From Nonomuraea sp. SBT364 (GTDB taxonomy: Bacteria > Actinomycetota > Actinomycetes > Streptosporangiales > Streptosporangiaceae), in NCBI RefSeq assembly GCF_001083785.1, contig NZ_LAVL01000016.1, positions 1 through 64,000 on the forward strand: a DNA stretch of 64,000 nt. The letters are read 5' to 3'. Below the pieces are notes generated by a model. The model searched no databases. It had not been told where the DNA came from and worked only from the letters and a program-made list of their open reading frames with translations. The position numbers and the translations under genes are program-made. Of this stretch, positions 32,199 to 46,538 are shown in pieces. Position 1 is the stretch's first letter. Every line of letters begins with the position of its first letter.

Positions 32199-33449
32199 TC
32201 ACGGGAGGGCCAGCGCGAGCACCACGTTGTGCCCTCCGAAGCCGAAGGAGTTGCTCAGCGCGATCCCGGTCCCCACCGGACGCGGCGCTCCGGCCACGAC
32301 GTCGACGTCGATCCCGGGGTCCCGGACGTCGTGGTTGGCGGTGGGCGGGATCAGCCCCTCGCGCAGGGACAGCGCGGCACAGGCGGCCTCCACGGCGCCC
32401 GCGCCCGCGATCAGGTGGCCCATCGTGCCCTTGAGCGAGGTGACCGGCACCCCGTGGGGCAGGACCCTGCTGATGACCCTGCTCTCGGCGGCGTCGTTGA
32501 GCACCGTTCCGGTGCCGTGGGCGTTCACGTGGCCGACGTCCGCGGGCACCGCCCCCGCGTCGCTCAGCGCCAGCCGCAGCGCCCGCTCGGCGCCGGCCCC
32601 GGCGGGGTCGGGGGCCGTCGGATGACGGGCGTCGTCCGTAGCCGCGCACCCCGCCAGCAGCGCGTACGGCCGGCGGGCGCGGGCGCGGGTGTCGCGGAGG
32701 CGTTCGAGCACCAGCATGCCCGCGCCCTCCGCCATGACGAACCCGTCACGGCCGAGGTCGAACGGCCGGGAGGCGGCGGCCGGATCGTCGCGGCGGCGTG
32801 ACAGCGCGCCGAGCCGGTCGAAGCTGGAGATCACGAGCGGGCTGATGTCGGCGGTCGCGCCACCGGCGATCATGATGTCGGCGGCGTCCGACCGGAGGAG
32901 CTCCCTGGCCAGGTGGAGGGCCATGGCGCCGGACGCGCACGCCGCCCCGACCGCGAAGCACGGCCCGCCGGCGCCCAGCGCGATGGCGATCTCGCCGGCC
33001 GCCATGTTGGGCAGCACCCGCGTCATGGCCAGCGGAGGGACCCTGCGCGGCCCGCCCTCCAGCAGCCGCCGCTGCGCCTCCTCCCAGCTGGGCATGCCCC
33101 CGATGCTGGTGCCGACAATGACTCCCACGCGGCTGCCCTCCCAGGAAGCCGGATCGAGACCGGAGTCCCTGACGGCCTCGACGGCCGAGGCCATCGCCAG
33201 CTGGGCGAATCGGTCCATCCGGCGCGACAGTGGCCCGCCGAGCGCCGCCGCCGCGTCGAAGCCGGGGAGCGCGCAGGCGAAGTCCACCTCCAGCCCGGCC
33301 AGCGCCGGATGGGCGGAGGCGGTGGGCAGGCCCGCGCACAGCCCTTTCCAGGTGGCTTCCGTGCCGAGTCCCGCCGGGGTGAGCAGCCCGATCCCGGTGA
33401 TGGCGACGTCCGCCCTCGGTGCGCGTCGTCTGCTGGAAAGGAGCGTCAT
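32199..33449 (-). CDS. Beta-ketoacyl-ACP synthase II (FabF/KAS II-like)
   Basis: A 416-residue elongating condensing enzyme. The nucleophile is in AVGAACASGAMAL, the first histidine in NAHGTGTVLNDAAE, and the second histidine with lysine in LKGTMGHLIAGAGAVEA, so the CHH set is complete. SNSFGFGGHNVVL closes the fold. It would extend an ACP-bound chain with malonyl-ACP. The ATG has GAGAGG upstream. It faces away from a KAS III gene across 300 bp and opens the acyl-chain gene set. No chain-length-factor partner is encoded nearby. Confidence 0.92.
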   Translation of the reverse strand: MTLLSSRRRAPRADVAITGIGLLTPAGLGTEATWKGLCAGLPTASAHPALAGLEVDFACALPGFDAAAALGGPLSRRMDRFAQLAMASAVEAVRDSGLDPASWEGSRVGVIVGTSIGGMPSWEEAQRRLLEGGPRRVPPLAMTRVLPNMAAGEIAIALGAGGPCFAVGAACASGAMALHLARELLRSDAADIMIAGGATADISPLVISSFDRLGALSRRRDDPAAASRPFDLGRDGFVMAEGAGMLVLERLRDTRARARRPYALLAGCAATDDARHPTAPDPAGAGAERALRLALSDAGAVPADVGHVNAHGTGTVLNDAAESRVISRVLPHGVPVTSLKGTMGHLIAGAGAVEAACAALSLREGLIPPTANHDVRDPGIDVDVVAGAPRPVGTGIALSNSFGFGGHNVVLALALP

Positions 33450-33749
33450 CAGCGCCTCTCATGAATCGCTTTATGATTTCCCGCCGGCCGCCGGGGTGAT
33501 TATTCGAGTGGCGGTCCCCGGCCTCCTCCGCCGACATCGACAATTTTTCACGCGCCGATCGGGCGGACAAGAGAATAAGGGCTCGGTTTAGCCGAAGAAA
33601 TGCCGGAAATGTGCTGGAGGCCAAAGTCCCGGCGCTCGTGAACGCTCGCCCGGCACGCCCGGACGCAGGGACTTTATGCACTTGTCAGGCCCCCGGAAGC
33701 GTCCCAGAATCATCAGGAACGACGTGTTATCCATCCGCAGGAGGTAGTC
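33450..33749. other. 300-bp divergent promoter region of the acyl-chain genes
   Basis: This gene-free region lies between the divergent KAS II and KAS III genes and is less GC-rich than its flanks around 33460-33480, 33540-33550 and 33700-33735, as expected for promoters. It holds a 7-bp-arm inverted repeat (GCCGGGG at 33490-33496 with CCCCGGC at 33516-33522). I see no ORF or RNA gene in it. Confidence 0.6.
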
Positions 33750-34790
33750 GTGACGGCCGAAACAGTCCCGAAAGGCGGAACCCCTGGATCACGAATAGGG
33801 CCGGTTCCCCGGCTGGCCATTCCGGCGCGCATTCTCGCGGTGGGCGCGTACCGGCCGGGCAGGGGGATCGCCAACGCCGAACTGAGCGAATCCCTCGACA
33901 CCTCCGACTCCTGGATCGTCAAGCGGACCGGGATCCGCCGCAGGTGCGCCGCGTCGCCCGCCGAGACGGTCGTGACCATGGGGGCGGCCGCGGCGGGGAA
34001 GGCGCTGGCCTCGGCCGGGAAGACGATCGACGCCGTCGACTGCGTCGTGGCGGCCACGATGAGCTACACCGGGCAGAGCCCCTCCGCCGCCGTGCAGATC
34101 GCCCGCGAGCTGGGCGCCAGGCGTGTCGGGGCGTTCGACGTCTCCGCCGCCTGCGCCGGCTTCAACTACGCGCTCGACGTCGCCCGCGCGCTGATCGCCG
34201 CGGGTTCAGCCCGGCACGTGCTGGTCGTGGCCAGCGAGCGGATGTCCGACCTCGTCGACCCCGGCGACCGCACCACGGCCGTCATCTTCTCCGACGGGGC
34301 CGGGGCCGCGCTTGTCGGCGCGTACGGCGAACCGGGCATCGGGCCGATGTCGTGCGGGAGCGACGGTTCGCTGGCCGGCGTGGCGGGCCAGGACTTCCCC
34401 TGGGCGCACTTCCGCGACACCCCCGGGTGCCGCCGGCCGTACTTCCGGATGCGGGGTCCCGAGCTGTTCCGGTGGGCGATCAGCGAGATGCCCGCGGTGG
34501 CGCTGCGGGCCGTGGACGCCGCGGGGCTCGCCCTGGAGGACCTCGCGGCGTTCATCCCCCATCAGGCCAACCTGCGCATGATCGAGGCGATCGCCGAACG
34601 GATCCCCCTGCCGGGGCACGTCGTCGTGGCCAGGGACGTCGAGGACCAGGGCAACACCTCGGCGGCCTCCATCCCGCTGGCCATCTCACGGCTGAAGGAG
34701 GAGGGGGCCGTGCCCGCCGGCGCCTTCGCGCTCCTGCTCGGCTTCGGCGCCGGCGTCGCCTATGGCGCCCAGGTGGTACGGCTGCCCTGA
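33750..34790 (+). CDS. Beta-ketoacyl-ACP synthase III (FabH-like), paralogue 1
   Basis: A 346-residue initiating condensing enzyme. The catalytic cysteine is in FDVSAACAGFNYAL, histidine in FIPHQANLRMIEAI, and asparagine in EDQGNTSAASIPLA; SDSWIVKRTGIRRR is the usual N-terminal strand. It normally joins an acyl-CoA primer to malonyl-ACP. Residues around position 200 (DFPWAHFRDTPGCRRPYFRM) match ordinary FabH proteins more closely than the second paralogue at 43992 does. GTG 33750 has AGGAGGT at 5 nt. A signal-free, cytoplasmic protein. Confidence 0.92.
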   Translation: MTAETVPKGGTPGSRIGPVPRLAIPARILAVGAYRPGRGIANAELSESLDTSDSWIVKRTGIRRRCAASPAETVVTMGAAAAGKALASAGKTIDAVDCVVAATMSYTGQSPSAAVQIARELGARRVGAFDVSAACAGFNYALDVARALIAAGSARHVLVVASERMSDLVDPGDRTTAVIFSDGAGAALVGAYGEPGIGPMSCGSDGSLAGVAGQDFPWAHFRDTPGCRRPYFRMRGPELFRWAISEMPAVALRAVDAAGLALEDLAAFIPHQANLRMIEAIAERIPLPGHVVVARDVEDQGNTSAASIPLAISRLKEEGAVPAGAFALLLGFGAGVAYGAQVVRLP

Positions 34791-35037
34791 CCCCGCCGCA
34801 ATGCGCCGGGAGGTTAAGTCCCCTTTACTGACCCTAACTGCCGGTGTCAGTACGAATTCGACGGCCGCTGGGAAATGAGCGGTTGGGTGCGTTTGTGATA
34901 TCAACCGAGACACGAATCCCGCCCGATGCCCATGAGCTCACTGGTCTGCATGAGAACCGCGATGTTAAATGCAGGGGGTGGTTTTCCCGGCGGGGCGGGG
35001 CTTACGGGCGCATGCATCCCACCCGGATTGGAGCTGC
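34791..35037. other. 247-bp leader region without a recognisable gene
   Basis: The region after the KAS III stop is AT-richer than the surroundings (for example around 34815-34835 and 34890-34905) and most likely carries the promoter for the LuxR-type regulator unit that follows. Short ATG frames here lack ribosome sites and conserved content. Confidence 0.45.
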
Positions 35038-35643
35038 ATGAGACGAAGACACCTTCGCATCGTCAACTCAGAAGCCGCCGACGACCCTCCCGCCCGGACC
35101 GGGGCCCGTGCCCGCAAGCACCCCGGCCAACCGGCCGCCGCACACCCGGCGCCGCGAACGCTTCCCCCGCCTCCTCCCCTCCCAGGTACGGCGCCGGTCG
35201 TGCGCACTCCCCGGGCGGCCTCCTGCGACCGGCCCGGATCCGCGGCGGCCTTCCGGCAGAGGGGGCTCCCGGCCGGGGCCCGGGAGCGTTCCCGGCCGCC
35301 GACGGAACCGGCCCGCCGAACCGCCCGGCACCACGGCCGCGCCCGCCGGGGAGGCGCGTACGGGACGCGCTCGGGCGGCCTCCCGGCGGTGAGATGCCGG
35401 CCGCGCGGCAGGAGGCGCCGGCGGGCCGTGGCCGTGCGGGGCGGCGCCCAGCACCCCGCGCAGCCCGCCGCGCAGCCCGCCGAGGTGGGGCCCGGGCCGA
35501 TGGCCGGGCCCCACCCGTGCCGCCGTGGCCCGCCGCGCGCCGATCCCGTGATCGCGCCCGCCCGCAGATCGCCTGAGGTGGGACATCGGCCCGTCACGGC
35601 CCGTCGTCCCCTCGACGGGCAATACGAGAAAGCAGCCACATGA
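35038..35643 (+). CDS. Hypothetical Arg/Pro-rich frame overlapping the LuxR gene start
   Basis: A 201-codon frame beginning MRRRHLRIVNSEAADD after GGAG, and ending in a TGA that overlaps the ATG of the LuxR gene (ATGA), which is the way coupled genes are arranged elsewhere in the window. The content is very rich in arginine, proline and alanine with no recognisable domain, and the other frames of this stretch are also open. It may be a true regulator-coupled protein, a leader frame that couples translation, or chance in GC-rich DNA. I lean towards a leader role for the first ~30 codons. Confidence 0.3.
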   Translation: MRRRHLRIVNSEAADDPPARTGARARKHPGQPAAAHPAPRTLPPPPPLPGTAPVVRTPRAASCDRPGSAAAFRQRGLPAGARERSRPPTEPARRTARHHGRARRGGAYGTRSGGLPAVRCRPRGRRRRRAVAVRGGAQHPAQPAAQPAEVGPGPMAGPHPCRRGPPRADPVIAPARRSPEVGHRPVTARRPLDGQYEKAAT

Positions 35644-36146
35644 CAGAGAACCAGAGCGCCAGCAGACGCGTGCTGAGCGGCTTCGGGAAGGTGAGTCCTT
35701 TCAACGGGGCGCCAAGTGTCTCCTGGTCCCGGTCATCGGCACTCAAGGACATCGAGGAAGCGATCGAGTTCGTGCGCCACGGTCTGACCCGCCAGCGGGA
35801 GGCCTTGCGGATCCTGGAACGGACGCGCGAGCAGATGTTGCACGAGGGGCCCGTGCTCGGGCCCTGTGAGGCGCGCCAGCACGGGAGCCCGGCGCCGGCC
35901 ACGGTGACAGGAGCGGAACGGCACGGGCTCACCAGCCAGGAGATCCGGGTGCTCTCGCTCATCGGGAGGGGCATGTCGAACAGGCAGATCGGCGGCGCCC
36001 TCGACATCGCCGAGAAGACGGTCAAGAACTACGTGCACGCCATCTTCCGCAAGCTCGACGTGCGCAGCCGTACCGAGGCCGCGCTCTTCGCCCTCAGGGA
36101 GGGATGGGTGATCGCGGAGGAGTCGCGGCTGCGCGACTCGGGTTAG
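35640..36146 (+). CDS. Small LuxR-type regulator without receiver domain
   Basis: A 168-residue protein. The N-terminal half (about 1-95) has no receiver phosphorylation site; it contains a charged helix (IEEAIEFVRHGLTRQREALRILERTREQML) that could form a coiled coil. The C-terminal helix-turn-helix is a good LuxR/NarL domain: LTSQEIRVLSLIGRGMSNRQIG, ALDIAEKTVKNYVHAIFRKL. It lies inside the acyl-chain gene set, between a KAS III gene and the lipase/MMPL pair, and is a plausible pathway-specific activator. Confidence 0.85.
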   Translation: MTENQSASRRVLSGFGKVSPFNGAPSVSWSRSSALKDIEEAIEFVRHGLTRQREALRILERTREQMLHEGPVLGPCEARQHGSPAPATVTGAERHGLTSQEIRVLSLIGRGMSNRQIGGALDIAEKTVKNYVHAIFRKLDVRSRTEAALFALREGWVIAEESRLRDSG

Positions 36147-36162
36147 CGGCCGCACGTGATCC

Positions 36163-36203
36163 GGCGAGGGGGGCGCGGGCGCACGGATCCGGGCCCCCTC
36201 GCC
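36163..36203. terminator. Perfect 10-bp hairpin between convergent LuxR and lipase genes
   Basis: GGCGAGGGGG (36163-36172) pairs with CCCCCTCGCC (36194-36203). It lies between two convergent stops and can act on both strands. Confidence 0.75.
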
Positions 36204-36224
36204 CGTGCCCTCGGCCGGGCGGGG

Positions 36225-37211
36225 TCAGGAGGTGATCGGCGCCCCGGCGACAGGCACGACCGGCAGGCAGACCGCCTTCCGCCCGGCGGGCGTGCGCTCG
36301 CGCCCGGGGGACAGCGCGTTCTTCACGTAGTGCAGCGCCCTCGGGTCGTAGATTATGGCGAGGTGCTCGGTCAGGTCGATCGCGCATCCGTCCTGCAGCA
36401 CGATGTTGCGCACCTCGGCCCCCGGCCCGGCCGACAGGAACGTCGAGGTGAACGGCGTGGCGATCTCGTCGTAGCGCGTGGCCAGCACCGTGTAGCGAAT
36501 CCCGGGCATCGTGTCGCCGCCCCTGTTGAGCTCGACCATGAACTCCGACCCGGTGGCCTGCTGCACCGCCGCCTTGCTGATCACGGCGCCCGCCTGCCGC
36601 CTGACGCCGAGGACGTCGAGCATGCTCATGACTCCGTCGACCGTGGTGCCGTGGTGGGTGGCGGCCAGCGACACGAGCTTGGACACCTTGTTGCGCCAGG
36701 GCCTGCGGGCGTCGGCGCCGCCTTCGTGGCGCAGGTACCAGCGGGGCATCATGCCGCCCTGGGAGTGGCCCACGAGCGCGACCCGGCGGGCGCCGGTGGC
36801 CGCGAGCACCCGGTCGACGAACCGGGCCAGCTCGCGCCCGGAGCGCCGGATGTCGCCCGTGGCCTTGAGCGGGCTGCCGGGCGGGGCGCCGTAGTTGATC
36901 GCGAAGACGCAGTGGCCCTCACGCTTGAGGTCGGGAGCCATGTAGCGCCAGGAGTTGTAGGCGTTGCCGTAGGTGCCGTGGACGAGCACGACCGGCTCGG
37001 GATGGCGGCGGGAGGGCTCGCACGACCAGTCGTTCGCCCCGGGAGGCGACCGGTCCGGGTCGAGCAGGGAGTAGGCCAGGTGGACCGGGAAGACGCCGCG
37101 CGGGTCCGGGACCGCCGCCCCGGCGGAGGCGGCGGGAGCGGCGGCGACGGCCGTCACGGCGACCAGGCAGAGGGAGGCCGTCACCGTGAGGCCGCGGTTG
37201 TGGATGGGCAT
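36225..37211 (-). CDS. Secreted lipase, alpha/beta-hydrolase (class 2 lipase / EstA-like)
   Basis: A 328-residue exported hydrolase. The signal peptide (TVTASLCLVAVTAVAAAPAASA) precedes PVVLVHGTYGNAYNSW, the oxyanion HG motif; VALVGHSQGGMMPRWYL carries the nucleophile serine, and TEHLAIIYDPRALHYV the catalytic histidine. Six cysteines (for example PSRRHPEP-flanking and DGCAID) suggest disulfides. AGGACATCCC precedes ATG 37211. It sits on the same strand behind the MMPL exporter gene with a 53-bp gap, so it may process or release the exported acyl product outside the cell. Confidence 0.9.
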   Translation of the reverse strand: MPIHNRGLTVTASLCLVAVTAVAAAPAASAGAAVPDPRGVFPVHLAYSLLDPDRSPPGANDWSCEPSRRHPEPVVLVHGTYGNAYNSWRYMAPDLKREGHCVFAINYGAPPGSPLKATGDIRRSGRELARFVDRVLAATGARRVALVGHSQGGMMPRWYLRHEGGADARRPWRNKVSKLVSLAATHHGTTVDGVMSMLDVLGVRRQAGAVISKAAVQQATGSEFMVELNRGGDTMPGIRYTVLATRYDEIATPFTSTFLSAGPGAEVRNIVLQDGCAIDLTEHLAIIYDPRALHYVKNALSPGRERTPAGRKAVCLPVVPVAGAPITS

Positions 37212-37264
37212 GGGATGTCCTGAAGATCGAGGGCTACACAAGGCAATGCGATGGTAACGGAGAG

Positions 37265-39640
37265 TCAACGACTCCGTGGTGTTCCGGGCAGCAGCACGCC
37301 CAGGAGCCGCCGGATGCCGCGCGGCCGCCGCGCCGGCGGTCCCGGCGGGGGCTCGGCTTCGGAGATGCCGAACCGCTCGTGCAGCCGGGCGAGCGGTGCG
37401 GGGGCCCACCAGTTGGCCGTCCCGGTGAGCCGCATGAAGGCGGGCACGAGCAGGCCGCGGACCAGGGTCGCGTCGACCAGCACGCTGAGCGCCAGGCCGA
37501 CACCGATGATCTTCAGGACCGTGTTGGTGGAGAACGCCAGGAAGCCCGTCGACACCGCGACCGCGAGGGCCGCGACGCTCACCAGCCGCCCGGTCCCCGC
37601 GATGCCCCTGACGACGGCGGCCGTGTGGTCGCCAGTGGCGCGATGATGCTCCCGGATGCGCGACAGCAGGAAGACCTCGTAGTCCACCGACAGCCCGAAC
37701 GCCACGGTGACGGTGAGCAGGATGGAGACGACCTCCACGTGGTGCGTCAGGGTGAAGTCGCCCAGCAGCCCGCGCAGGTGGCCGTCCTGGAAGATCGCGA
37801 CCAGGGCTCCGCAACTGGCCGTCAGGCTCAGCGCGCCGACGGCGACCGCCTTGACCGACACCAGGACGCCGCCGGTGAACAGGAAGAGCAGCGTCAGGAC
37901 GGTGATCGCGATGAGGCCGCCCGCCAGCGGCAGCCGGTTCCTCAGTGCGCCGAGCGTGTCGACGGCCTGCGGGGTCGGTCCGGTGACGAGCCGCGTTCCC
38001 GGAGGGCGTACGTCACGGACCCGGTCGAGCAGCTCGCGGGCGCCCGCCGACTGGGCGTCGTGCGGGCCGGACACGCTGATCAGGGTCGCGGCGCTGCCGT
38101 GGAAGCCCTGGGCGAACGCTTTCCCTTTCGTGTCCTCCGTCTTCTCGGCCGCCTTCGCCGGCGGGTCCTCCGGCGGGCAGGGGGTCTCCTGCGCGGCGGC
38201 GCCCCGGTAGACGCCCGTGGTGGTCCGTACGACGGTCACATCCGGCAGGGCGGCGAGCCGGTGCGCGTACTTCGCCAGCCTCCGGCACCCGGCGGGCCGT
38301 GAGCTGTCCAGGTACGGCAGGACGATGTGGAGATCACGGTCGAAGGGCTGGTCGAAGTCCTGGTGGATGCCGTGCGCCGTCCGGTGGGACTCCGTGTCCG
38401 CGGGCAGCACGCGTTCGTCGGCGATCCCGAAGCGCACCCACAGGAACGGGGCCGCCATCAGCAGCAGGACCAGCGCGCACGAGCCCCCGACGAGCACCGG
38501 CCGCCGGGTCGAGAGGGCCGCGATGCGCCGCCAGGCCGCGCTCTCCGGCACCGGGCGGCGGTGCGCGGACCGCCGCAGCCACGCGAAAGGGTCGCCGCCG
38601 CTGATGCGCTCGCCGACCACGGCGAGCAGGGCCGGCAGGATCAGCATCGTCGCGGCCGCCGCCATGAGCACGACGATGATCGTGGTCAGGGCGAGCGAGC
38701 GCAGCACCCCCAGGGGGAGGACCAGGAGGTTGGCGGTGGCGAGCGCCACCGTGAGCGCCGAGAACAGGACCGTGTGCCCGGCGCTGGCCATGGCCCGCTC
38801 GACGGCCTGCCGCACCGTGCACCCACGCGCCAGCTCCTCCCGGTAGCGGGTGGTGATGAAGAGGCTGTAGTCGATGGCGAGCCCGAGCCCGAGCGCGGTG
38901 GTGAGGTTGGGCGCGAACACCGACACCGGGGTGAACTCGCTGACCAGCACGAGCGCCGTCAGCGTGCCGACGATCGTGAGGCCGCCGATCGCCAGGGGCA
39001 GCAGCGCCGCGTGCACCGACCGGAAGGCCACCAGCAGGATCAGCAGGAGCAGCGGGACGGTGACCAGCTCCGCGCGATGCAGATCGTCCTTGGCCAGCCG
39101 GAGGAACTGCACCGACGCCCACGCCGGTCCGGTCGCCGCCACCTTGAGCGAGCCCGCCCGCTCGGCCAGCGGGGGGACGATCCGCTCGGCGGTCCTGGCC
39201 GCCCGCGCGTCGTCACCGGACAGGTCCACGCGGATCAGCGCCGACCTGCCGTCGCGGGCGCGCAGGGCCGGATCGCGGGTCGTCCAGTAGGACTGCACTC
39301 CCGACACCCCCGGCCGGGCCGCGAGCCACCGGTCGAGCCGGCCGGCGGACTTCGCGACGCCCGGGGCGTCGACGCTCTCCCGGGCGGTCACCCGGAGCAC
39401 GAGATCCGCCGGCTTGACGGGGAAGCGCCGCGCCATCACCGCCTCGGCCCGCGCCGCCTGGGTGCCGCGGGCGGTGTAACCGCCGTTGGACAGCCGGCTG
39501 TCGAGCTTCAGCGAAGCCAGTCCCAGGATGACCGTGAGCAGCACGGCGAGGGACAGCAGGCGCCGCCGGTGCCCGACGCACCAGCGCGCGTAGGCGGACA
39601 GCGGAACCAGGGACGCACCGGGACGACCGTCGGTTCTCAA
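37265..39640 (-). CDS. MMPL-family lipid/RND exporter
   Basis: A 791-residue, 12-helix transporter with the MmpL layout: helix 1 at residues 25-45, a ~140-residue extracytoplasmic loop, helices 2-6 containing GLGLAIDYSLFITTRYREEL, a second ~170-residue loop, and helices 8-12 with FGLSVDYEVFLLSRIREH. The two DY pairs form the proton relay. Members export large lipids and lipopeptides. The TTG start at 39640 has GGAGGA 6 nt upstream. It is divergent from the ACP gene across 180 bp, which places it inside the acyl-chain gene set. Confidence 0.92.
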   Translation of the reverse strand: MRTDGRPGASLVPLSAYARWCVGHRRRLLSLAVLLTVILGLASLKLDSRLSNGGYTARGTQAARAEAVMARRFPVKPADLVLRVTARESVDAPGVAKSAGRLDRWLAARPGVSGVQSYWTTRDPALRARDGRSALIRVDLSGDDARAARTAERIVPPLAERAGSLKVAATGPAWASVQFLRLAKDDLHRAELVTVPLLLLILLVAFRSVHAALLPLAIGGLTIVGTLTALVLVSEFTPVSVFAPNLTTALGLGLAIDYSLFITTRYREELARGCTVRQAVERAMASAGHTVLFSALTVALATANLLVLPLGVLRSLALTTIIVVLMAAAATMLILPALLAVVGERISGGDPFAWLRRSAHRRPVPESAAWRRIAALSTRRPVLVGGSCALVLLLMAAPFLWVRFGIADERVLPADTESHRTAHGIHQDFDQPFDRDLHIVLPYLDSSRPAGCRRLAKYAHRLAALPDVTVVRTTTGVYRGAAAQETPCPPEDPPAKAAEKTEDTKGKAFAQGFHGSAATLISVSGPHDAQSAGARELLDRVRDVRPPGTRLVTGPTPQAVDTLGALRNRLPLAGGLIAITVLTLLFLFTGGVLVSVKAVAVGALSLTASCGALVAIFQDGHLRGLLGDFTLTHHVEVVSILLTVTVAFGLSVDYEVFLLSRIREHHRATGDHTAAVVRGIAGTGRLVSVAALAVAVSTGFLAFSTNTVLKIIGVGLALSVLVDATLVRGLLVPAFMRLTGTANWWAPAPLARLHERFGISEAEPPPGPPARRPRGIRRLLGVLLPGTPRSR

Positions 39641-39820
39641 CCATTTCCTCCGTGTTCGTCGAGATGAAACGGCGGCGACAATTCATTCTCCATGCCGTGC
39701 CATGGAAATCGACGGGAACAAAGACACCGGGACTTTCGGCAGAATGGCCGGTGGCGAATGCGGGACCTAAGCTGCCGCCATGGGTGAACAATTCAAGCGC
39801 CGCTTTTTCGAAAGGAACTC

Positions 39821-40096
39821 ATGGCCGCATTCACGCTGGACCACCTCAACCGCATCCTCGGCCGGGAGCCGGGGGTCCTGGTAGCGGGGCACGAGGTCGA
39901 CCGCACCTTCGCTGACCTGGGCGTGGACTCGCTGGCGCTGGTCGAGCTGACCGAGCGCCTCATCGACGAGCACGACATCCCCGCGCCCGGCGACATCCAC
40001 GAGGAACTGGGCACCCCGGGCCTCGTCCTCGCCTACGTCAACCGCCATGTCGAAATGCGCCGTGACCACGACGTCGAAGAATGCGCGGGCACCTAG
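39821..40096 (+). CDS. Acyl carrier protein
   Basis: A 91-residue ACP. The phosphopantetheine serine is in the LGVDSLALVELTERL helix 2 motif; the rest is acidic with the usual four-helix pattern (TFADLGVDS, ERLIDEHDIPAP). The C-terminal ~15 residues (HVEMRRDHDVEECAGT) extend past the usual ACP end and include a cysteine. ATG 39821 follows AAAGGAAC. It starts a six-gene plus-strand run and is the likely carrier for all condensing and tailoring enzymes of the set. No phosphopantetheinyl transferase is encoded in the window. Confidence 0.93.
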   Translation: MAAFTLDHLNRILGREPGVLVAGHEVDRTFADLGVDSLALVELTERLIDEHDIPAPGDIHEELGTPGLVLAYVNRHVEMRRDHDVEECAGT

Positions 40097-40124
40097 TGGC
40101 GCCGAAAAGAAGGGGACGGCGAAC

Positions 40125-41420
40125 GTGAGCAGATTTTCCCGTGGGAGCGACGGCCGCGAGGTGCCGATGGGCCCCGTCGACCGGTTCTTCGTCTCCGGTC
40201 TCGGCGGGCTGGTCACCGACGAGACGACCATGTACATCGGCGGGATCGTCCGGCTCTCCGGTGCGCCGCCCAGTCTCGGCGAGCTCCGGAGCCTGGTGGC
40301 CGCCCAGGCCCGGCGCGTCCCCGTCCTGAGCTATCGCGTCGACCGCGAGAGGCGCGCCTGGAGCGTGTGCGACGGGTTCACGCCCGCCGACCACGTGGTG
40401 GAGCGCCGGCTGACCCCCGGCGCCGACGTGACGGCCCACGCGCTGGAGGTGATGGCCGAGCCGTTCCGGGCCGACCGGCCGCTCTGGCGGCTGGCGCTCA
40501 TCCACGGGTACGGCGGCGCGGGGGAGGACGAGCAGTACACGCTGTGCTACGCCGCCGACCACGCCTACCAGGACGGCATGTCGATCACCGCCACGGTGGA
40601 GGCGCTGTTCGGCGGCGGTTCCCTGCCCGTGCCGCACGCGAAGGAGTACCCCACGGCCATCCGCCCCCGGCGCTGGCCGGCCCCGTCGGACCTCGCCGTC
40701 CCCCTGCGGCGGGTGCCGGTCTGGGAGCCGCTGCGCGGCCCCTTCACCGGGCGGCGGAAGCTGCTGACCTTCCGCTTCGATCAGGACGCGATCAACGCCA
40801 CCGCCAAGGTGACCGGCGCGACACGCAACCAGGTGTGCCTGGCGGCCCTGGCCGGGGCGCTGCGGGACTGGGCGCCGGAGGAGTGGACGGCGCCGGTCGG
40901 CCCGCGCCGCCGTCACGGCCTTCCCGTGGCGCTGCCGCTCAGCCTCCGCGCCGGCCGGGGCAGCGGATGCCTCGGCAACCAGGTCACGGGCCTGCACATC
41001 CACCTGCCCTGTCACCGGCCCTCGCCCACGGAGCAGCTTCGCCAGGTCGTCGAGCAGACCGGCATGGAACGCCTGCAACGCCACCGCGAGCTGCATCGCG
41101 CACTCCTGCCCCGCCTGCCCTACGCCGCCGTACGGCCTCTTCTGGCGCGGCTGTTCGATCCGCGCTACACCGCCATGTTCATCACGACCGTGCGGATGGG
41201 CCCGCTCCGGATCGGTGACCTGCCCATCCGGGACGTCTGGGGAATCCCCCCGCTCCTGCCCGCGCAGCCCCTGATGATCGTGCTCTGCCAGTACCGGGAC
41301 GGGATCATGCCGTCGCTGCTGTTCGACACCGCCGTCGAGGGCTGCGACCGGCTCGCCGAGCTGTGGAGCAGGCACGTCAACGTCCTGCACGACGCGGTCA
41401 CCACGGTTACCGCACGCTGA
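40125..41420 (+). CDS. WS/DGAT-like acyltransferase (wax-ester synthase superfamily)
   Basis: A 431-residue BAHD/condensation-fold acyltransferase. MGPVDRFFVSG at the start and DRPLWRLALIHG match wax-ester synthase/diacylglycerol acyltransferases; the HHxxxDG active site reads DHAYQDGMS, with the first histidine replaced but the catalytic second one kept. NQVCLAALAGALRDW and LGNQVTGLHIHLPC are the usual later blocks. It should join an acyl group to an alcohol or amine. GTG 40125 follows AAGGGGA. It is 28 bp after the ACP gene, so an ACP-bound donor is plausible instead of acyl-CoA. Confidence 0.82.
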   Translation: MSRFSRGSDGREVPMGPVDRFFVSGLGGLVTDETTMYIGGIVRLSGAPPSLGELRSLVAAQARRVPVLSYRVDRERRAWSVCDGFTPADHVVERRLTPGADVTAHALEVMAEPFRADRPLWRLALIHGYGGAGEDEQYTLCYAADHAYQDGMSITATVEALFGGGSLPVPHAKEYPTAIRPRRWPAPSDLAVPLRRVPVWEPLRGPFTGRRKLLTFRFDQDAINATAKVTGATRNQVCLAALAGALRDWAPEEWTAPVGPRRRHGLPVALPLSLRAGRGSGCLGNQVTGLHIHLPCHRPSPTEQLRQVVEQTGMERLQRHRELHRALLPRLPYAAVRPLLARLFDPRYTAMFITTVRMGPLRIGDLPIRDVWGIPPLLPAQPLMIVLCQYRDGIMPSLLFDTAVEGCDRLAELWSRHVNVLHDAVTTVTAR

Positions 41421-41444
41421 CGAGCACCCGAGCGAGGAGTCTCA

Positions 41445-43196
41445 GTGGACCTGACCACGTTCGTGCGCGGCGGCCTGCCTGACGAGTCGCACGCGCGGCT
41501 GCGGGAGGCGATCCCCGCCGGCTTCTTCGGCTACCCCCGGGGGATGCCGCCGGCGGATCGCCACGCGCTCACCTACGAGCGGTTCCGGCACGCCGGGACG
41601 GCCGCGCCGTCCGCCGGGCGGCTCCTGGCCCGGCCGCCGGAGCTGTGCGCGCTGCTGGAGCGGGCCGCCGTCGCCGACCCGGCGCTCTTCCACGTGATGC
41701 TGCTGCACTACACGCTGACGCTGGTGCCGATCCTGCGGTTCGGCGACCGGAGCACCGAGCCGGTCCGGCGGCGGCTGGAAGCCATGGACCGCTTCGGCGC
41801 GGTGGCCATGACCGAGGCCGGGCGCAGCAACAGCCATCTGATGCCCGCGACGGTCGCCCGCTTCGACGCCGCCGACCGCTCCTTCGTCCTGACCACGCCC
41901 GACCCGGCGGCGGTGAAGTTCCCCACGACGGCCGGCCATCCGGGCGTCCCCAAGCTCCTCACCGTGTACGCGCGGCTGGTCGACGACGGCGGGGAGCGGG
42001 GCGTGTTCCTGTTCCTGGTCCCGCTCGGCGGCGGCGACGGCGACAGTGACGGTGCGGCCGGCGGTGACGGCGTCCACGTCCTGCCCGCCGCCGACAACCC
42101 CGCGCTGTCGCTGGACTGGGCGGCCGTGCGCTTCGACGGGCTCCGGCTCCCGTTCGAGTCCTGGCTGGCGGCCGGCGCCCGCATCACCGCCGACGGCGTC
42201 TTCCACGATCCCCTGGCGGGGTCGCGGGCCGCCCTGTCGATGTGCGCGGCCCCGTACGTGTGGCGCGGCATCATCGCGGCGGGCGCGGCCGCCTACCGGG
42301 CCGGCGCCGCCTCGCTGACGCTGCACTCCGTCGACCGCCCCACCCAGGGACGGCTGGCGCCCGGCCGCCCCCTCATCGACCATCGCAACCAGCAGGAGGC
42401 CGTCCTGACCGCGCTGGCCAGGGGTTACGCGCTGACCGCCGTCGCCAACCGCGTCAAGACCGGCGCCGCGTGGTCGGCAGGCGGCTCGGCGTCCGCCTCG
42501 ACGTGGACGCCGTGGGCGTCCGTGGACCTCATGCTCCCGCTCCTGAAGGCCGCCGTCACCGACCTCGCCGAGGACACGGCCGGCCTGTGCCGCACGCACT
42601 CCGGGGCCCCCGGCTTCCTCGCCTCCGGCAGGCTCAACGGCTACCGGGGGCTCGCGCACGCCTACCTGAGCGCCGGGGGCGACAACCAGCTCATCCTCTT
42701 CGACGTCGCTCGGGCCATGGTCGAACGGGACCGCTACGAGCCGCCCGATCCCGGCCAGGGAGTGTTCGACCTCTCCCTCGAAGGCTGCCTCGACGCCGCC
42801 CGGGCCCTCGAACTGCGGCTCGTGGACGAACTGTCCGTACGCGTCACCGCGCCCGGCTCCCTCGGCGACTGGAACCCGCATCTCGCCCTCGCCGCCAGGA
42901 CGGCGACCGCACTGGCCGACCGGGTCATCCTGGAGATCCTCCAGGACGGCCCGCCGCGCCTGCGTCCGGTGTTCCGGTGGTTCGCCCTCGACTGGGCGGA
43001 ACGCCGCGCCGGCCTGCTGCTGGACGAGGCGATCGCGGTCCCCCCGCTGATCGGGCGGATCAGGGCCCTGCGCGACGAGCTGTGCGCCGAGCTGATGCCC
43101 AGGACACCCGAGCTGGTCGAAGCCTTCGAACTGCCCGAACTGCACGAACCCCCCGTCTGGAGTACGTCATGGACCTCACCGGCAAGTCAGCACTGA
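41445..43196 (+). CDS. Acyl-CoA dehydrogenase/oxidase-like flavoprotein
   Basis: A 583-residue protein with the acyl-CoA oxidase layout: an N-terminal helical domain, FGAVAMTEAGRSNSHLMPATVARFD (FAD/substrate strand region), a middle beta domain ending near VRFDGLRLPF, and a long C-terminal helical domain with DHRNQQEAVLTALARGYALTAVAN. It would put an alpha-beta double bond into an acyl chain, or act in reverse fashion on an ACP-bound chain. I cannot point to the usual catalytic glutamate with certainty. GTG 41445 has GAGGAG at 7 nt. Its last 28 bases overlap the reductase gene. Confidence 0.78.
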   Translation: MDLTTFVRGGLPDESHARLREAIPAGFFGYPRGMPPADRHALTYERFRHAGTAAPSAGRLLARPPELCALLERAAVADPALFHVMLLHYTLTLVPILRFGDRSTEPVRRRLEAMDRFGAVAMTEAGRSNSHLMPATVARFDAADRSFVLTTPDPAAVKFPTTAGHPGVPKLLTVYARLVDDGGERGVFLFLVPLGGGDGDSDGAAGGDGVHVLPAADNPALSLDWAAVRFDGLRLPFESWLAAGARITADGVFHDPLAGSRAALSMCAAPYVWRGIIAAGAAAYRAGAASLTLHSVDRPTQGRLAPGRPLIDHRNQQEAVLTALARGYALTAVANRVKTGAAWSAGGSASASTWTPWASVDLMLPLLKAAVTDLAEDTAGLCRTHSGAPGFLASGRLNGYRGLAHAYLSAGGDNQLILFDVARAMVERDRYEPPDPGQGVFDLSLEGCLDAARALELRLVDELSVRVTAPGSLGDWNPHLALAARTATALADRVILEILQDGPPRLRPVFRWFALDWAERRAGLLLDEAIAVPPLIGRIRALRDELCAELMPRTPELVEAFELPELHEPPVWSTSWTSPASQH

Positions 43197-43975
43197 TCAC
43201 CGGCGCCTCCCGCGGCATCGGCCGGGCGATCGCGCTCCGCTTCGCCGGGGCGGGCGCGAACGTCGCCCTGCTCGCCCGGAGCGCGGACGCGCTCGAAGAA
43301 GTCGCCGCCCAGGCCGGCGCCCGGGGCGCCAAGACCCTCACGCTGCCCTGCGACGTCGGCTCTGCCAGCGCGATCGACTCCGCCGTCGCCGAGGCCGTCG
43401 ACGTCTTCGGCGGCCTGGACATCCTGGTCAACAACGCGGGCTCCGTCGGCAGCGCGGGCCCGTTCCTGGAGCTCACCGACGAGGACTGGGCGCACGTGCT
43501 CGCCGTCGACCTCACGGCGGTCAACCGGTTCCTGAGGCTGTTCGGCAGGCACGCCACGGCGCGCGGCAGCGGCTCGGTCGTCAACATCTCCTCCGTCGCG
43601 GGGGAGCGGGGCTGCCCGATGCTGTCCCACTACGCCGCGGTCAAGGCCGCCATGAACTCCCTCACCCGCACGCTCGCCGCCGAGTGGGCCGCCAGCGGGG
43701 TCCGGGTGAACGCCATCCAGCCGGGCTGGGTGGCCACCGACCTCACCGCGTCCTTCCACGCCGACCAGGGCGCCTCCGAAGCCCTGATGCGGGCCGTGCC
43801 CGCCCGGCGCTGGGCGAGCCCGGAGGAGATCGGCGACGGCGCCCTCTACCTGGCCGGCGACGCCGCCGCCATGGTGACCGGCGCGATCCTGACGATCGAC
43901 GGCGGCATGGCCGCCTGCAACGGCGGGCCCGCCATGATCGACCTGCTCGCCCTCGGCCGCGTCGAGATGCCCTGA
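43169..43975 (+). CDS. Short-chain dehydrogenase, 3-oxoacyl-ACP reductase-like (FabG type)
   Basis: A 268-residue classical SDR. ALITGASRGIGRAIA is the cofactor loop (the arginine and LLARSAD context favour NADPH), ILVNNAG the structural motif, and the catalytic set is in VVNISSVAG, HYAAVKAAMN. PGWVATDLT and the C-terminal IDGGMAA are as in FabG. It would reduce the 3-keto group made by the condensing enzymes. ATG 43169 lies inside the end of the flavoprotein gene, so it is coupled to it. The usual dehydratase partner is not encoded nearby. Confidence 0.9.
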   Translation: MDLTGKSALITGASRGIGRAIALRFAGAGANVALLARSADALEEVAAQAGARGAKTLTLPCDVGSASAIDSAVAEAVDVFGGLDILVNNAGSVGSAGPFLELTDEDWAHVLAVDLTAVNRFLRLFGRHATARGSGSVVNISSVAGERGCPMLSHYAAVKAAMNSLTRTLAAEWAASGVRVNAIQPGWVATDLTASFHADQGASEALMRAVPARRWASPEEIGDGALYLAGDAAAMVTGAILTIDGGMAACNGGPAMIDLLALGRVEMP

Positions 43976-43991
43976 ACGCCCGGAGGCGCAC

Positions 43992-45056
43992 ATGAGAGAG
44001 GTGAACGGCTTGATCTCCCTTCCCCCGGGAGTCGGCGTCCTCGGCACCGGCGCCCACGTGCCCGAGGCGATCCGCACCAACGAGGAGGTCGCCGGACGGG
44101 CGGGCGTGTCGGCGGAGTGGATCGCCGAGCGGACGGGCGTGCGGCGGCGCCATGTCGCGGCACCCGGCGAGGCCGCCTCGGACCTGGCCGCGCACGCGGT
44201 CCGGGCGGCGTTGCGCAGCGCCGGGCTGCGGCCGGGCGACCTGGACCTGCTGATCCTGGCGACGTCCACGCCCGACGAACTCGGCCCTTCGACCGCCTGC
44301 CGGGTCCAGGCCCTGCTCGGCGCGGAGAACGCGGTCGCGCTCGACGTCTCGGCGGCCTGCGCCGGCTGGCTCTTCGGCACCCGGGTCGCCTCCGACTGGC
44401 TGCGCCTGGAGCGGCCGGGCCGGCACGCCGCGGTCGTCGGCGTGGAGGCGTACTCGCGCTTCCTCGACGACGCCGACCGGGGCACGGCGGTGCTGTTCGC
44501 CGACGGGGCCGGCGCGGCGGTTCTCGGCACCGTGGCCGCCGGGCACGGGTTCGGCCCGATCATCCTGGGCTCCGACGGCACCCGCGCGGGCGACGTCCTG
44601 ATCCCCGGCGGGGGCAGCCGGCTGCCGGCCAGCCACGAGACGGTCGAGCGTGGCCTGCACCGCATCCACATGGACGGCAGGGCGGTACGCAAGTTCATCC
44701 TGGAGATCTTCCCCCTGGCCGCCGCCCAGGCCTTGCGGGAATCAGGGCTGACCAGGGACGACATCGCGCTGGTGGTCACCCACCAGCCCAATCCCGTGCT
44801 GCTCCGCCAGGCCTGCGCCGAAGCCGGGTTCGCCCCGGAGCGGCTCGTGATCGTCGCCGACCGGGTGGGGAACATCGGCGCAGGAGCGCTGCCCTACGCC
44901 CTGGCCGACGCGCACCGGCAGGGCCGGCTCCGCCCGGGCGACCACGTCCTGATCGTCGCCTTCGGGGCGGGACTGACCTGGGGGAGCGGCGTGCTCACCT
45001 GGTCCGCCGGCAACCCCTCCGCCGATCGGGGGTCCCATGCCGCGGGCGACTCCTGA
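43992..45056 (+). CDS. Beta-ketoacyl-ACP synthase III-like, paralogue 2
   Basis: A 354-residue KAS III homologue. The triad is complete: cysteine in LDVSAACAGWLFGT, histidine in VVTHQPNPVLLRQ, asparagine in VGNIGAGALPYALAD. It departs from true FabH in the insert GDVLIPGGGSRLPASHETVERGLHRIHMDG and in HQPNP in place of HQAN, features seen in the divergent KAS III group that includes pathway-specific starters and acyl-coupling enzymes. GGAGG precedes ATG 43992 by 5 nt. It overlaps the acyltransferase gene behind it by 20 bases. Confidence 0.88.
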   Translation: MREVNGLISLPPGVGVLGTGAHVPEAIRTNEEVAGRAGVSAEWIAERTGVRRRHVAAPGEAASDLAAHAVRAALRSAGLRPGDLDLLILATSTPDELGPSTACRVQALLGAENAVALDVSAACAGWLFGTRVASDWLRLERPGRHAAVVGVEAYSRFLDDADRGTAVLFADGAGAAVLGTVAAGHGFGPIILGSDGTRAGDVLIPGGGSRLPASHETVERGLHRIHMDGRAVRKFILEIFPLAAAQALRESGLTRDDIALVVTHQPNPVLLRQACAEAGFAPERLVIVADRVGNIGAGALPYALADAHRQGRLRPGDHVLIVAFGAGLTWGSGVLTWSAGNPSADRGSHAAGDS

Positions 45057-45996
45057 GCCGGTCTACCTGGTCCCCGGCCAGGGCGGCGACCCGCGCGGCG
45101 CCCTGCTGGACGTCCACGACGCCTCACCCGCCGTCCGGACGGTGTGCGAGCAGGTGCTCGACGAGATCGAGGGCGTCCTGACCACGACCGGGGCGCCCTG
45201 GTCCGCCGTCCGCCGCGTCCTGTTCGACCGGTCCCGCTCGCTGCGGATGGAGTCGGGGGTGCCGCAACTGGCCGGATACGCGATCTCGGTCATCGTGGGC
45301 CGGCTGCTGTCGGCCCGGCTCACCCCGCGCGCGATCGTCGGGCAGAGCTTCGGCGAGATCGCGGCCCTCGTCTGCGCGGGCGCCTTCGACGTCGCCGACG
45401 GCACCCGCGCGGTGTGCGCGCTCAACGCGGCCTTCCGGCAGTCCGAGGGACGCGGGGCGATGGTCCTGCTGCCGGAGCTGGGCGAGGCGGGCTGTCTCCG
45501 GCTGCTCGCGCGTGCCCGTCTGCCCGATCTGACACTCGCCTGCGTGAACGCGCCGGACCAGACCATCGTGAGCGGGCCCGTCGACGCCGTCGAGGCGCTG
45601 CTGGCGTTCGGCGGGACCACGATGACCAGGCTCGCCGTACCCTACGCGGCGCACCACCCCGCGCTCGGCGAGGTCGCGGACCGCTTCCTGCGGGGGCTGG
45701 GCCCGCTGCGGCAGCGTCCGCTGCGGGTGCCCGTCCACTCGCCGGTCCACGGGCGGGTGTACGACGACCGCGACGACCTGCGCCGGGCGCTGGCCGGCTG
45801 CGTCACCCAGCCCGTGCACCTGCCCGGGACCCTGCGGCGCCTCGGTCCCGGTCACCAGTACATCGAGCTGAGCGCGGGCGACGCGCTCACCCGGTGCGTG
45901 CGGGCCACCCTCCCCGGCGCCCGCGCCGTCGCCCCGCTGGCCGCCGACCGCGACTGGCTGGTGGCCACGGCGGATCCGGCCACGGCCCGGACCTGA
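45037..45996 (+). CDS. Malonyl-CoA:ACP transacylase-like acyltransferase (FabD fold)
   Basis: A 319-residue FabD/AT-domain-like protein. VYLVPGQGG is the N-terminal loop, the nucleophile serine is in IVGQSFGEIAAL (GHSxGE with histidine replaced by glutamine), the acid-binding arginine is likely in NAAFRQSEGRGAM, and the catalytic histidine in YAAHHPALGEV. CVNAPDQTIVSGP is typical. It would load malonate or another acyl group on the ACP encoded at 39821. The ATG lies 20 bases inside the preceding gene. It ends the plus-strand run and is convergent with a MarR gene. Confidence 0.88.
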   Translation: MPRATPEPVYLVPGQGGDPRGALLDVHDASPAVRTVCEQVLDEIEGVLTTTGAPWSAVRRVLFDRSRSLRMESGVPQLAGYAISVIVGRLLSARLTPRAIVGQSFGEIAALVCAGAFDVADGTRAVCALNAAFRQSEGRGAMVLLPELGEAGCLRLLARARLPDLTLACVNAPDQTIVSGPVDAVEALLAFGGTTMTRLAVPYAAHHPALGEVADRFLRGLGPLRQRPLRVPVHSPVHGRVYDDRDDLRRALAGCVTQPVHLPGTLRRLGPGHQYIELSAGDALTRCVRATLPGARAVAPLAADRDWLVATADPATART

Positions 45997-46023: not shown

Positions 46024-46494
46024 TCAACCGGGCTGTTCGCGCAGTTCCCTGGTGGCCGAGCGGTAGGCGCGGGCGACGCCGGTGAGCATGCCGAGCATCA
46101 GCGGCACCTGCTCCGGCGAATAGTCCGCGCCGATCTTCCCCAGGTGCCGCTCGGAGGTGACGCGGGTGGCGTGGTACTCGGCCATGCCGTCCTCGATCAG
46201 CTCCACGGTGACCGTGCGCCGGTCGCGCTCGCCGCGCACCCGCCGTACGTAGCCGGCCTTCTCCAGGCGGTCGACGAGCCGGGTCGTGGAGGCGGACGGC
46301 AGCCCCAGCTCCTCGGAGATCGCGCCCACCGCGAGGGGGCCGCGCATCTCCAGCAGGATGAGGGCGGCCACGTCGACATGCTGCACGCCGAGCCGACCGG
46401 CGATCGCCTCGATGTGCAGCATGACCGCGATCAGGAACTCGCGGAAGACGTCCTCTTCCGGATGCTTGCCGGTCACCCGCCCAATGTACTTCAT
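46024..46494 (-). CDS. MarR-family regulator
   Basis: A 156-residue winged-helix regulator. VDVAALILLEMRGPLAVGAISEELGLPSASTTRLVDRLEKAGYVRRV is the DNA-binding region, with the wing arginines in GERDRRTVTVEL. ATG 46494 is preferred since the longer start at 46521 would place the operator-like repeat inside the gene; neither has a clear ribosome site, so a leaderless transcript is possible. It is divergent from a FAD monooxygenase across 44 bp and very likely controls it. Confidence 0.87.
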   Translation of the reverse strand: MKYIGRVTGKHPEEDVFREFLIAVMLHIEAIAGRLGVQHVDVAALILLEMRGPLAVGAISEELGLPSASTTRLVDRLEKAGYVRRVRGERDRRTVTVELIEDGMAEYHATRVTSERHLGKIGADYSPEQVPLMLGMLTGVARAYRSATRELREQPG

Positions 46495-46503
46495 ATCGAT
46501 GTA
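46487..46503. promoter_or_regulatory. Possible MarR operator
   Basis: TACTTCATATCGATGTA is an imperfect 17-bp palindrome (five of eight pairs) overlapping the MarR start codon and facing the divergent FAD monooxygenase gene; size and place fit a MarR site. Confidence 0.4.
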
Positions 46504-46538
46504 TCTTCGAAGCGGAGTCATTTCGATTTGGAGAGAAC

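Follow-up and report, generated by a model that had tools for sequence, protein, structure and literature searches.

Several described systems share part of their makeup with the eleven genes at positions 32199-45996 of a 64,000-nucleotide stretch of the Nonomuraea sp. SBT364 genome (positions 1 to 64,000 of contig NZ_LAVL01000016.1; this whole stretch is "the window" below). Avenolide-type pathways, with Aco and Cyp17, use a homologue of acyl-CoA oxidase (ACOX) outside ordinary beta-oxidation, and the function of Aco in relation to avenolide has been published (parts of PMC5575351 and PMC7670052). The initiation modules of type II polyketide synthases (PKSs), such as ZhuH-ZhuC-ZhuG and DpsC-DpsD, consist of a type III ketoacyl synthase (KASIII), an acyltransferase (AT)-like acyl hydrolase, and an acyl carrier protein (ACP), by the descriptions in parts of PMC7221717 and PMC12664062; in the latter, ZhuC and EncL, which are AT-like partners of priming KASIII enzymes, are editing thioesterases. 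AfsA takes part in the synthesis of the butyrolactone A-factor, and the wax ester synthase/diacylglycerol acyltransferase (WS/DGAT) family is modelled by TIGR02946. Unlike the avenolide-type systems, the window's gene set has an ACOX homologue that lost the catalytic glutamate, there is no P450 among the eleven genes, and a dedicated KASIII and AT are present. In contrast to the type II initiation modules, it has no ketosynthase/chain-length-factor pair or cyclases, and it does have an ACOX, a second KASIII, and a single KASII. An AfsA-type hotdog gene is not among the eleven, but such a gene stands in the place of the AT in sister clusters.

We think that this is probably a dedicated cluster for a small acyl-derived specialised metabolite, and that it represents a Nonomuraea-type extension of a seven-gene cassette that is conserved among actinomycetes. 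This reading rests on the gene content, the conservation of the genes, the loss of particular residues, a shared promoter motif, and the presence of a separate housekeeping gene set; the order of the enzymes, their reactions, the product, and its export are what we infer from these. The sequence-only reading of the window had named the eleven gene types and proposed a stand-alone pathway that assembles, tailors, and exports an acyl chain. All eleven are present as intact open frames with a G+C content at third codon positions typical of coding sequence, and Pfam identifies each of the proteins, so that this observation is confirmed and its interpretation is supported in part. We found no description of the gene set in open-licence PMC papers, although one elsewhere may exist.

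Six of the genes lie in one row on the forward strand, with gaps of at most 24 base pairs (bp) or overlaps. The row begins with the ACP (39821-40096; Pfam PP-binding), which carries the expected DSL (within LGVDSL), and continues with a WS/DGAT-like acyltransferase (40047-41420; both Pfam domains, WS_DGAT_cat and _C). The overlap between these two genes hinges on the uncertain start of the second, for which 40167 is also possible. Next come an ACOX-like flavoprotein (41445-43196; Pfam ACOX_C_alpha1), a FabG-like ketoreductase of the short-chain dehydrogenase/reductase (SDR) type (43169-43975; Pfam adh_short; 42% identical to an SDR of the cluster on the Streptomyces violaceusniger plasmid pSTRVI02), the KASIII that is the conserved partner of the ACOX (43992-45056, hereafter KASIIIb; Pfam ACP_syn_III; HQPNP and GNIGA motifs), and the AT, a FabD-fold acyltransferase (45037-45996; Pfam Acyl_transf_1). 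To the left of this row are a FabF-type KASII with its active-site cysteine (32199-33449, reverse strand; Pfam ketoacyl-synt) and a second, FabH-like KASIII (33750-34790, forward strand, hereafter KASIIIa; Pfam ACP_syn_III). The catalytic Cys-His-His of the KASII is complete, and both KASIII proteins keep Cys-His-Asn. NCBIfam agrees on the families, with several scores far under the equivalog cut-offs, and NCBIfam lacks a model for the ACOX-like flavoprotein. As the sequence-only reading had stated, no dehydratase, FabI-type enoyl reductase, chain-length factor, or megasynthase is found among the eleven genes. We rejected a type II PKS, as there is a single KASII with an active cysteine and no KS-alpha/chain-length-factor pair. 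We also considered a tetronate-type route, which parts of PMC12304814 describe as a FabH-like condensation with a glycerate unit, and none of the eleven genes is of the FkbH type.

The cluster genes lie outside primary metabolism. The same genome (9.98 Mb in 361 contigs) has a separate fabD-fabH-acp-fabF row on another contig (C311), and therefore the cluster is not the housekeeping fatty-acid synthesis system; nor are its genes the only or main copies of fabD, fabH, acp, or fabF. Sole copies serving primary metabolism had been named as a finding that would count against a dedicated pathway. Across the genome there are 7 matches to the KASIII C-terminal domain, 15 to the acyltransferase domain (one of them under the cut-off), and 29 to the ketosynthase domain. 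The cluster KASII shares 40% identity with the FabF of this genome, 49% with the KASII of pSTRVI02, and 52% with the KASII of another ACOX locus (L066; L numbers denote the loci compared). KASIIIa is closer to the housekeeping enzyme: its identity is 49% to the FabH of this genome versus 37% to the KASIIIa of the seven-gene operon at L080. In a tree of KAS proteins, whose root is uninformative given two long branches of KASIII proteins from the same genome, KASIIIa groups with FabH and apart from the KASIIIa proteins of the seven-gene operons. Because it is by these measures a FabH paralogue, the cluster KASIIIa is classified by sequence as the same gene type as in those operons but of a different lineage.

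The residue that distinguishes the flavoprotein from ordinary acyl-CoA oxidases is a glutamate. In acyl-CoA oxidases, the glutamate of the EGDN/EGEN motif is the catalytic base. When the window protein is aligned with the tomato, Arabidopsis, rat, and human enzymes, this position is Gly411. We aligned 85 ACOX proteins, which were thinned only of identical sequences and from which frames under about 480-500 amino acids were left out (for residue counts and trees alike): 62 from the branch that goes with an AT or hotdog neighbour, 17 that retain the glutamate, and six others. No two sequences in the 62-member branch are more than 99% identical. In that branch, the glutamate is replaced in every case (59 glycine, two alanine, one threonine), while it is kept in 17/17 of the other branch; a 46-sequence tree separates the glutamate-containing proteins from the rest with support of 100/100. 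The glutamate is missing from all 50 ACOX proteins encoded beside an AT and from all 8 encoded beside a hotdog gene. Ten more proteins lack it with no such neighbour, of which four are at loci that are cut short (L003, L006, L106, and L031, the last being the window's own short locus) and six are real. A histidine, His131, shows the converse pattern: it is present in 62/62 of the AT/hotdog branch and in 0/17 of the glutamate-keeping branch.

The overall fold seems to be unchanged. A structure model of the flavoprotein (pLDDT 82, pTM 0.88) has the full ACOX fold; its best Foldseek match is to an ACOX (E = 5.8e-18), and the first 33 of the 50 PDB matches listed are ACOX proteins. Peroxisomal-type ACOX1 shares this whole fold, as well as the Thr-Glu of the flavin-loop motif, but it keeps the catalytic glutamate where the cluster protein has glycine. 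The flavoprotein has thus likely lost the usual ACOX chemistry, to judge from its residues. Desaturation of the chain by this protein, as had been proposed from the sequence, is not supported, since the catalytic glutamate is lost throughout its branch, and we reject desaturation by a normal ACOX. The glutamate-keeping branch is presumably the branch of Aco, mainly because one of its relatives, L079, lies beside a P450. The glutamate-keeping ACOX genes at L066, L076, L082, and L112 adjoin their own ACP and KASII genes, and therefore avenolide-type oxidases may also have a dedicated acyl supply.

The AT has likewise lost a residue that defines its family. In an alignment of 53 AT proteins (13 of them from outside the Actinomadura triad loci; an earlier 44-protein subset took only frames of at least 290 amino acids), the column of the malonyl-binding arginine (Arg117 in E. 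coli) contains leucine in 40, alanine in 12, valine in one, and arginine in none. In the same alignment, the genome's own FabD and a second FabD-type protein from this genome both keep the arginine. The catalytic serine and histidine are conserved in 53/53 each. The residue before the active-site serine is never histidine: it is glutamine in 42 (including the window, with GQS for GHS, and Actinomadura), valine in 10 (the operons of genus g70, described below, and L096), and methionine in one. The window's AT scores just 91.7 bits against the TIGRFam model for fabD (TIGR00128), whose cut-off is 260.9. With that cut-off missed and arginine in 0/53, we reject a FabD or malonyl transacylase role, and the label of FabD-like transacylase that was given to this gene does not hold. 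The acyl hydrolases of trans-AT PKSs differ from ATs at just these two positions, with Arg117 replaced (mostly by glutamine) and GHS changed to G(A/S/V)S, according to parts of PMC11775670. The cluster AT shows the same marks: Ser-His retained, Arg117 replaced, and the histidine before the serine replaced. Like PksD and its relatives, it belongs to the FabD-type family and has lost both residues while keeping the catalytic pair. However, position 117 in PksD-type hydrolases is usually glutamine and not leucine, alanine, or valine; the published form of the serine motif is G(A/S/V)S, where here the residue is glutamine or valine; and the PksD-type enzymes sit with trans-AT PKSs, of which there are none in this cluster. 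On this evidence, the AT is probably an acyl hydrolase or a transferase of an acyl group other than malonyl. It may be the release enzyme that had been thought missing, and the statement that the set contains no thioesterase is accordingly doubtful.

To see where else these genes occur together, we compared loci from other actinomycetes, using gene calls from a simple GC-position script and looking as far as the stretch compared extends. Nonomuraea ceibae has all eleven genes in the same order, with 80-93% identity for ten of the proteins and 58% for the ACP. Among 54 Nonomuraea genomes, the ACOX is found in four (at 1e-50), namely the window's genome and N. ceibae, which are of the window type, and two of a hotdog type, so the whole cluster is present in 2/54, the window's own genome included. 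In a sample of the phylum, the window's ACOX matched 6/396 genomes (1e-25; its own included) and the AT matched 2/396 (1e-30), in one of which (L098) its neighbour is a KASII-like frame and the cassette is missing. In genus g70, which is probably Streptomyces (its relatives on named plasmids belong to Streptomyces; near matches of L104 are from Streptomyces in 1/1 records, and those of L080 in 3/6, with the rest from Rhodococcus), the ACOX of L080 as query matched 15/295 genomes (1e-50). Eight of these 15 loci (L080, L099, L101-L105, and L107, in the last of which the ACOX is in two pieces) have the colinear order AT-ACOX-KASIIIb-FabG-KASIIIa-ACP-KASII. L100 has the same row minus FabG (6/7 genes), in L108 an AfsA-type hotdog gene accompanies the set, which there lacks the AT, L106 ends at a contig edge, and L112 has KASIIIa-ACP-KASII-ACOX with the catalytic glutamate kept. 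At L109, L110, and L111, the ACOX adjoins a KASII-containing frame of another kind. These three ACOX proteins and that of L065, which is also beside another KASII-containing frame, lack both the glutamate and the histidine, and at none of the four loci was a partner from this AT or hotdog family recognised.

A smaller set of genes is widespread in the Actinomadura group. A scan for the ACOX across contigs from one genome per species found 30 loci, which were N. ceibae and 29 from Actinomadura or Spirillospora. The AT adjoins the ACOX in 27/29 of the latter, and 25/29 have KASIIIb as well. Of the four loci without KASIIIb, L003 and L006 end at a contig edge, L017 has only 2.6 kb before the AT, and at L010 the gene is truly absent over 9 kb. 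The other core genes had no match at the 29 loci, within up to 10 kb on each side, except for seven FabG-type matches at 34-39% identity. At E = 1e-30, the ACOX turned up in 56/65 genomes of the Actinomadura group, some copies being in pieces; these genomes are assigned to the group because their loci repeat those of named Actinomadura. In one of these genomes, a second copy (L096) has the order ACP-KASIIIa-KASIIIb-ACOX-AT. In Streptomyces cattleyicolor pSCAT, by script gene calls on an unannotated record, KASIIIb-AT-ACOX lie beside an SDR, an AMP-ligase, and a WS/DGAT gene. Two Actinomadura loci that we inspected have what looks by eye like a TerD-like gene right after the triad of KASIIIb, AT, and ACOX (L012:11971-12546 and L021:11968-12543).

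An AfsA-type hotdog gene replaces the AT at eight loci (L108, L077, L061-L064, L094, and L095); the two hotdog proteins that we tested against Pfam have one AfsA domain each. The pSTRVI02 cluster (L077) is of this type, with KASIII, a KASIII fragment, hotdog, ACOX, two SDRs, ACP, and KASII; the fragment (L077:8784-9218) holds the start and end of the protein only and adjoins the intact copy. KASIIIb-FabG-hotdog-ACOX is the arrangement at four loci from two further genera of the family. After the Nonomuraea hotdog-type cluster of L095 are FabG-, FabD-, and KAS-like genes (L095:12363-19212), and this KAS has serine for the active-site cysteine. Beside 12 of 17 loci compared (L077 and L099-L108, with L080), of both AT and hotdog types, there is a regulator-like gene of about 450 amino acids that does not occur in the window; its protein has a helix-turn-helix-like start by eye, and the one that we tested had only sub-threshold TPR matches in Pfam. 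Conserved co-occurrence in other actinomycetes is thus seen for the seven core gene types; for all eleven, as named in the sequence-only reading, it is not supported beyond two Nonomuraea species.

Among the remaining genes of the window's set, two are linked to the core by a promoter motif. An MMPL-family exporter (37265-39640, reverse strand; Pfam MMPL, 4.9e-74; 11 hydrophobic segments) is transcribed away from the ACP gene, and a predicted secreted lipase-like alpha/beta hydrolase (36225-37211, reverse strand; Pfam Lipase_2/Abhydrolase_1; GHSQG; hydrophobic N-terminal stretch) lies 53 bp downstream of it. A small stand-alone LuxR/NarL-type regulator (35640-36146, forward strand; Pfam GerE; 93% identical in N. 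ceibae) completes the set. The divergent promoter region between KASII and KASIIIa (33450-33749) has two inverted GGGACTTT sites, at 33623-33630 (reverse strand) and 33668-33675 (forward strand), and the one between MMPL and ACP (39641-39820) has one, at 39729-39736 (forward strand). These are all of the sites in the window, where 0.44 are expected and 1 of 100 shuffles reached three. The 19.9 kb compared from N. ceibae also carry these three sites and lack any further one (0.14 expected; three were reached in 0 of 200 shuffles), and in both genomes they fall within well conserved blocks. Among 300 random pairs of size-matched window segments (coding or not; close pairs were skipped yet counted towards the total), no pair shared an exclusive 8-mer at three or more sites. 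Because we chose the motif after inspecting those two regions, these statistics are descriptive. GGGACTTT, which may resemble a NarL/DosR-type half-site, ties the MMPL and lipase genes to the assembly genes in one predicted regulon. It was missing from 17/18 other loci checked, and therefore looks like a Nonomuraea feature. Together with the separate fab row and the colinear core elsewhere, this motif agrees with the earlier proposal of a dedicated pathway outside housekeeping metabolism.

In the pathway that we propose, KASIIIa would start a chain on the cluster ACP from an acyl-CoA and malonyl-ACP made by the housekeeping FabD. KASII and FabG would then extend and reduce a short chain on this ACP, and the housekeeping dehydratase and enoyl reductase could join if needed. 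KASIIIb might catalyse a further condensation or an acyl transfer, and the flavoprotein might carry out a flavin oxidation of the chain without the usual glutamate base. The AT would clear or release the chain, a place that the AfsA-type hotdog protein would take in sister clusters. Ester or amide formation by the WS/DGAT-like enzyme, with an alcohol or amine as the acyl acceptor, would follow in Nonomuraea, as would export of the product by the MMPL protein. The occurrence of the triad alone in Actinomadura suggests that the triad is the product-forming part and that the rest is dedicated supply. More tentatively, KASIIIb, the glutamate-less ACOX, and the AT or hotdog protein could be an unrecognised product-forming module, in which the ACOX fold now serves a new flavin reaction centred on the invariant histidine and in which release is by an interchangeable FabD-fold hydrolase or AfsA-type hotdog protein; such a module would make undiscovered acyl signals or lipids and would be near-universal in Actinomadura.

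A number of observations weigh against our main reading. Six ACOX proteins lack the glutamate although they have no AT or hotdog neighbour (L065, L078, L097, L109, L110, and L111), so the loss of the glutamate is wider than the cassette. His131 is missing in five of these six (only L078 has it), and this histidine, found in 62/62 of the branch, therefore tracks the cassette and not mere glutamate loss. However, His131 aligns with a histidine of human and rat ACOX1, so normal dehydrogenation by another base in the flavoprotein is conceivable, and a C. elegans structure (5k3i) has alanine at the glutamate position, possibly as an engineered variant. Since KASIIIa is FabH-like and falls outside the lineage of the seven-gene operons, the supply part would be of mixed sources, and the supply genes are dispensable in Actinomadura, where the triad occurs on its own. 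MMPL, the lipase, and LuxR are linked to the cluster only in two Nonomuraea species. In the loci examined outside these two, MMPL had no match, and neither the lipase nor LuxR was matched next to the ACOX in the way seen in the window. Leftwards of the cluster, synteny with N. ceibae extends for about 20 kb, to about window position 12447, where the N. ceibae contig starts, and so the co-conservation of these three genes may reflect shared ancestry and proves little alone. We found no empty site for comparison: every one of the 54 Nonomuraea genomes has relatives of a flank gene, often several, and no further window gene is shared by the four best other loci of that gene. L075 and L105 do have a gene of the WS/DGAT type beside the cassette. 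The identity of those proteins to the WS/DGAT-like protein of the window is 31% (over 99 residues) for L075 and 25% for L105, and they are therefore possibly independent recruitments.

Other products would also account for parts of the set. A pathway for a diffusible acyl signal, such as a butenolide or another autoregulator, would fit the published role of Aco and the A-factor system: the P450 beside the ACOX relative at L079 is the Aco/Cyp17 arrangement, AfsA-type hotdog genes take the AT's place in sister clusters, and the regulator-like gene accompanies 12/17 loci. We consider this rather unlikely for the window itself, as no AfsA-type gene, P450 beside the ACOX, or TetR-type receptor lies within 32199-45996, the flavoprotein has lost the glutamate that the Aco-like branch keeps, and each of the two tested hotdog proteins matches one AfsA domain only. 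A surface or membrane lipid is a further possibility that we hold to be unlikely on balance. In that case the WS/DGAT-like enzyme would esterify the chain, MMPL would export it, and the lipase would trim it, as in mycobacterial lipid export. The WS/DGAT-like gene lies inside the row from ACP to AT, MMPL and the lipase share the predicted regulon, the best NCBIfam match of MMPL is the MmpL3 model (though far under its cut-off), and the presence of the triad's ACOX in most Actinomadura-group genomes would suit a lipid. But no MMPL match was found in the seven-gene or Actinomadura loci within the stretches compared, and none of the eleven genes encodes a glycosyl- or mycolyl-transferase. The WS/DGAT-like protein itself passes the Pfam cut-offs and scores under the cut-off of TIGR02946 (8.5e-29). 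The WS/DGAT consensus is HHxxxDG; the HxxxDG core is retained as HAYQDG, but the residue before it, the first histidine of the consensus, is aspartate (DHAYQDG).

It is quite improbable that the set is a starter-unit module like ZhuH/ZhuC/ZhuG, priming a PKS that is encoded elsewhere. A KASIII, an AT-like acyl hydrolase, and an ACP are the composition of such modules, ZhuC and EncL being editing thioesterases, and ketosynthase and AT matches are numerous in this genome. Yet at the 9 AT-type g70 loci there was no second frame matching KASII or AT (1e-4, over 17-20 kb), so no ketosynthase/chain-length-factor pair or AT-bearing megasynthase was recognised there, and the WS/DGAT and MMPL genes would be superfluous. 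That the genes are a redundant duplicate of fatty-acid synthesis with no special product, as the similarity of KASIIIa to the genome's own FabH might suggest, is very improbable: the frames are intact, active sites are retained, ten of eleven proteins are highly conserved in N. ceibae, and the core gene types are colinear in another genus.

We return to the reading as a dedicated cluster for a small specialised metabolite. With this set, a family of small and conserved biosynthetic cassettes is defined, and its triad is near-core in Actinomadura. Two questions follow: which reaction an acyl-CoA oxidase catalyses once its base is gone, and whether FabD-fold hydrolases and AfsA-type hotdog proteins can stand in for each other in releasing the chain. 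The names "FabD" and "acyl-CoA oxidase" can mislead for such genes. Directly to the right of the cluster, at 46024-47660, is a pair of genes for a MarR regulator and an FAD monooxygenase; the N. ceibae contig ends 1.27 kb past the AT, and this stretch has no MarR match.

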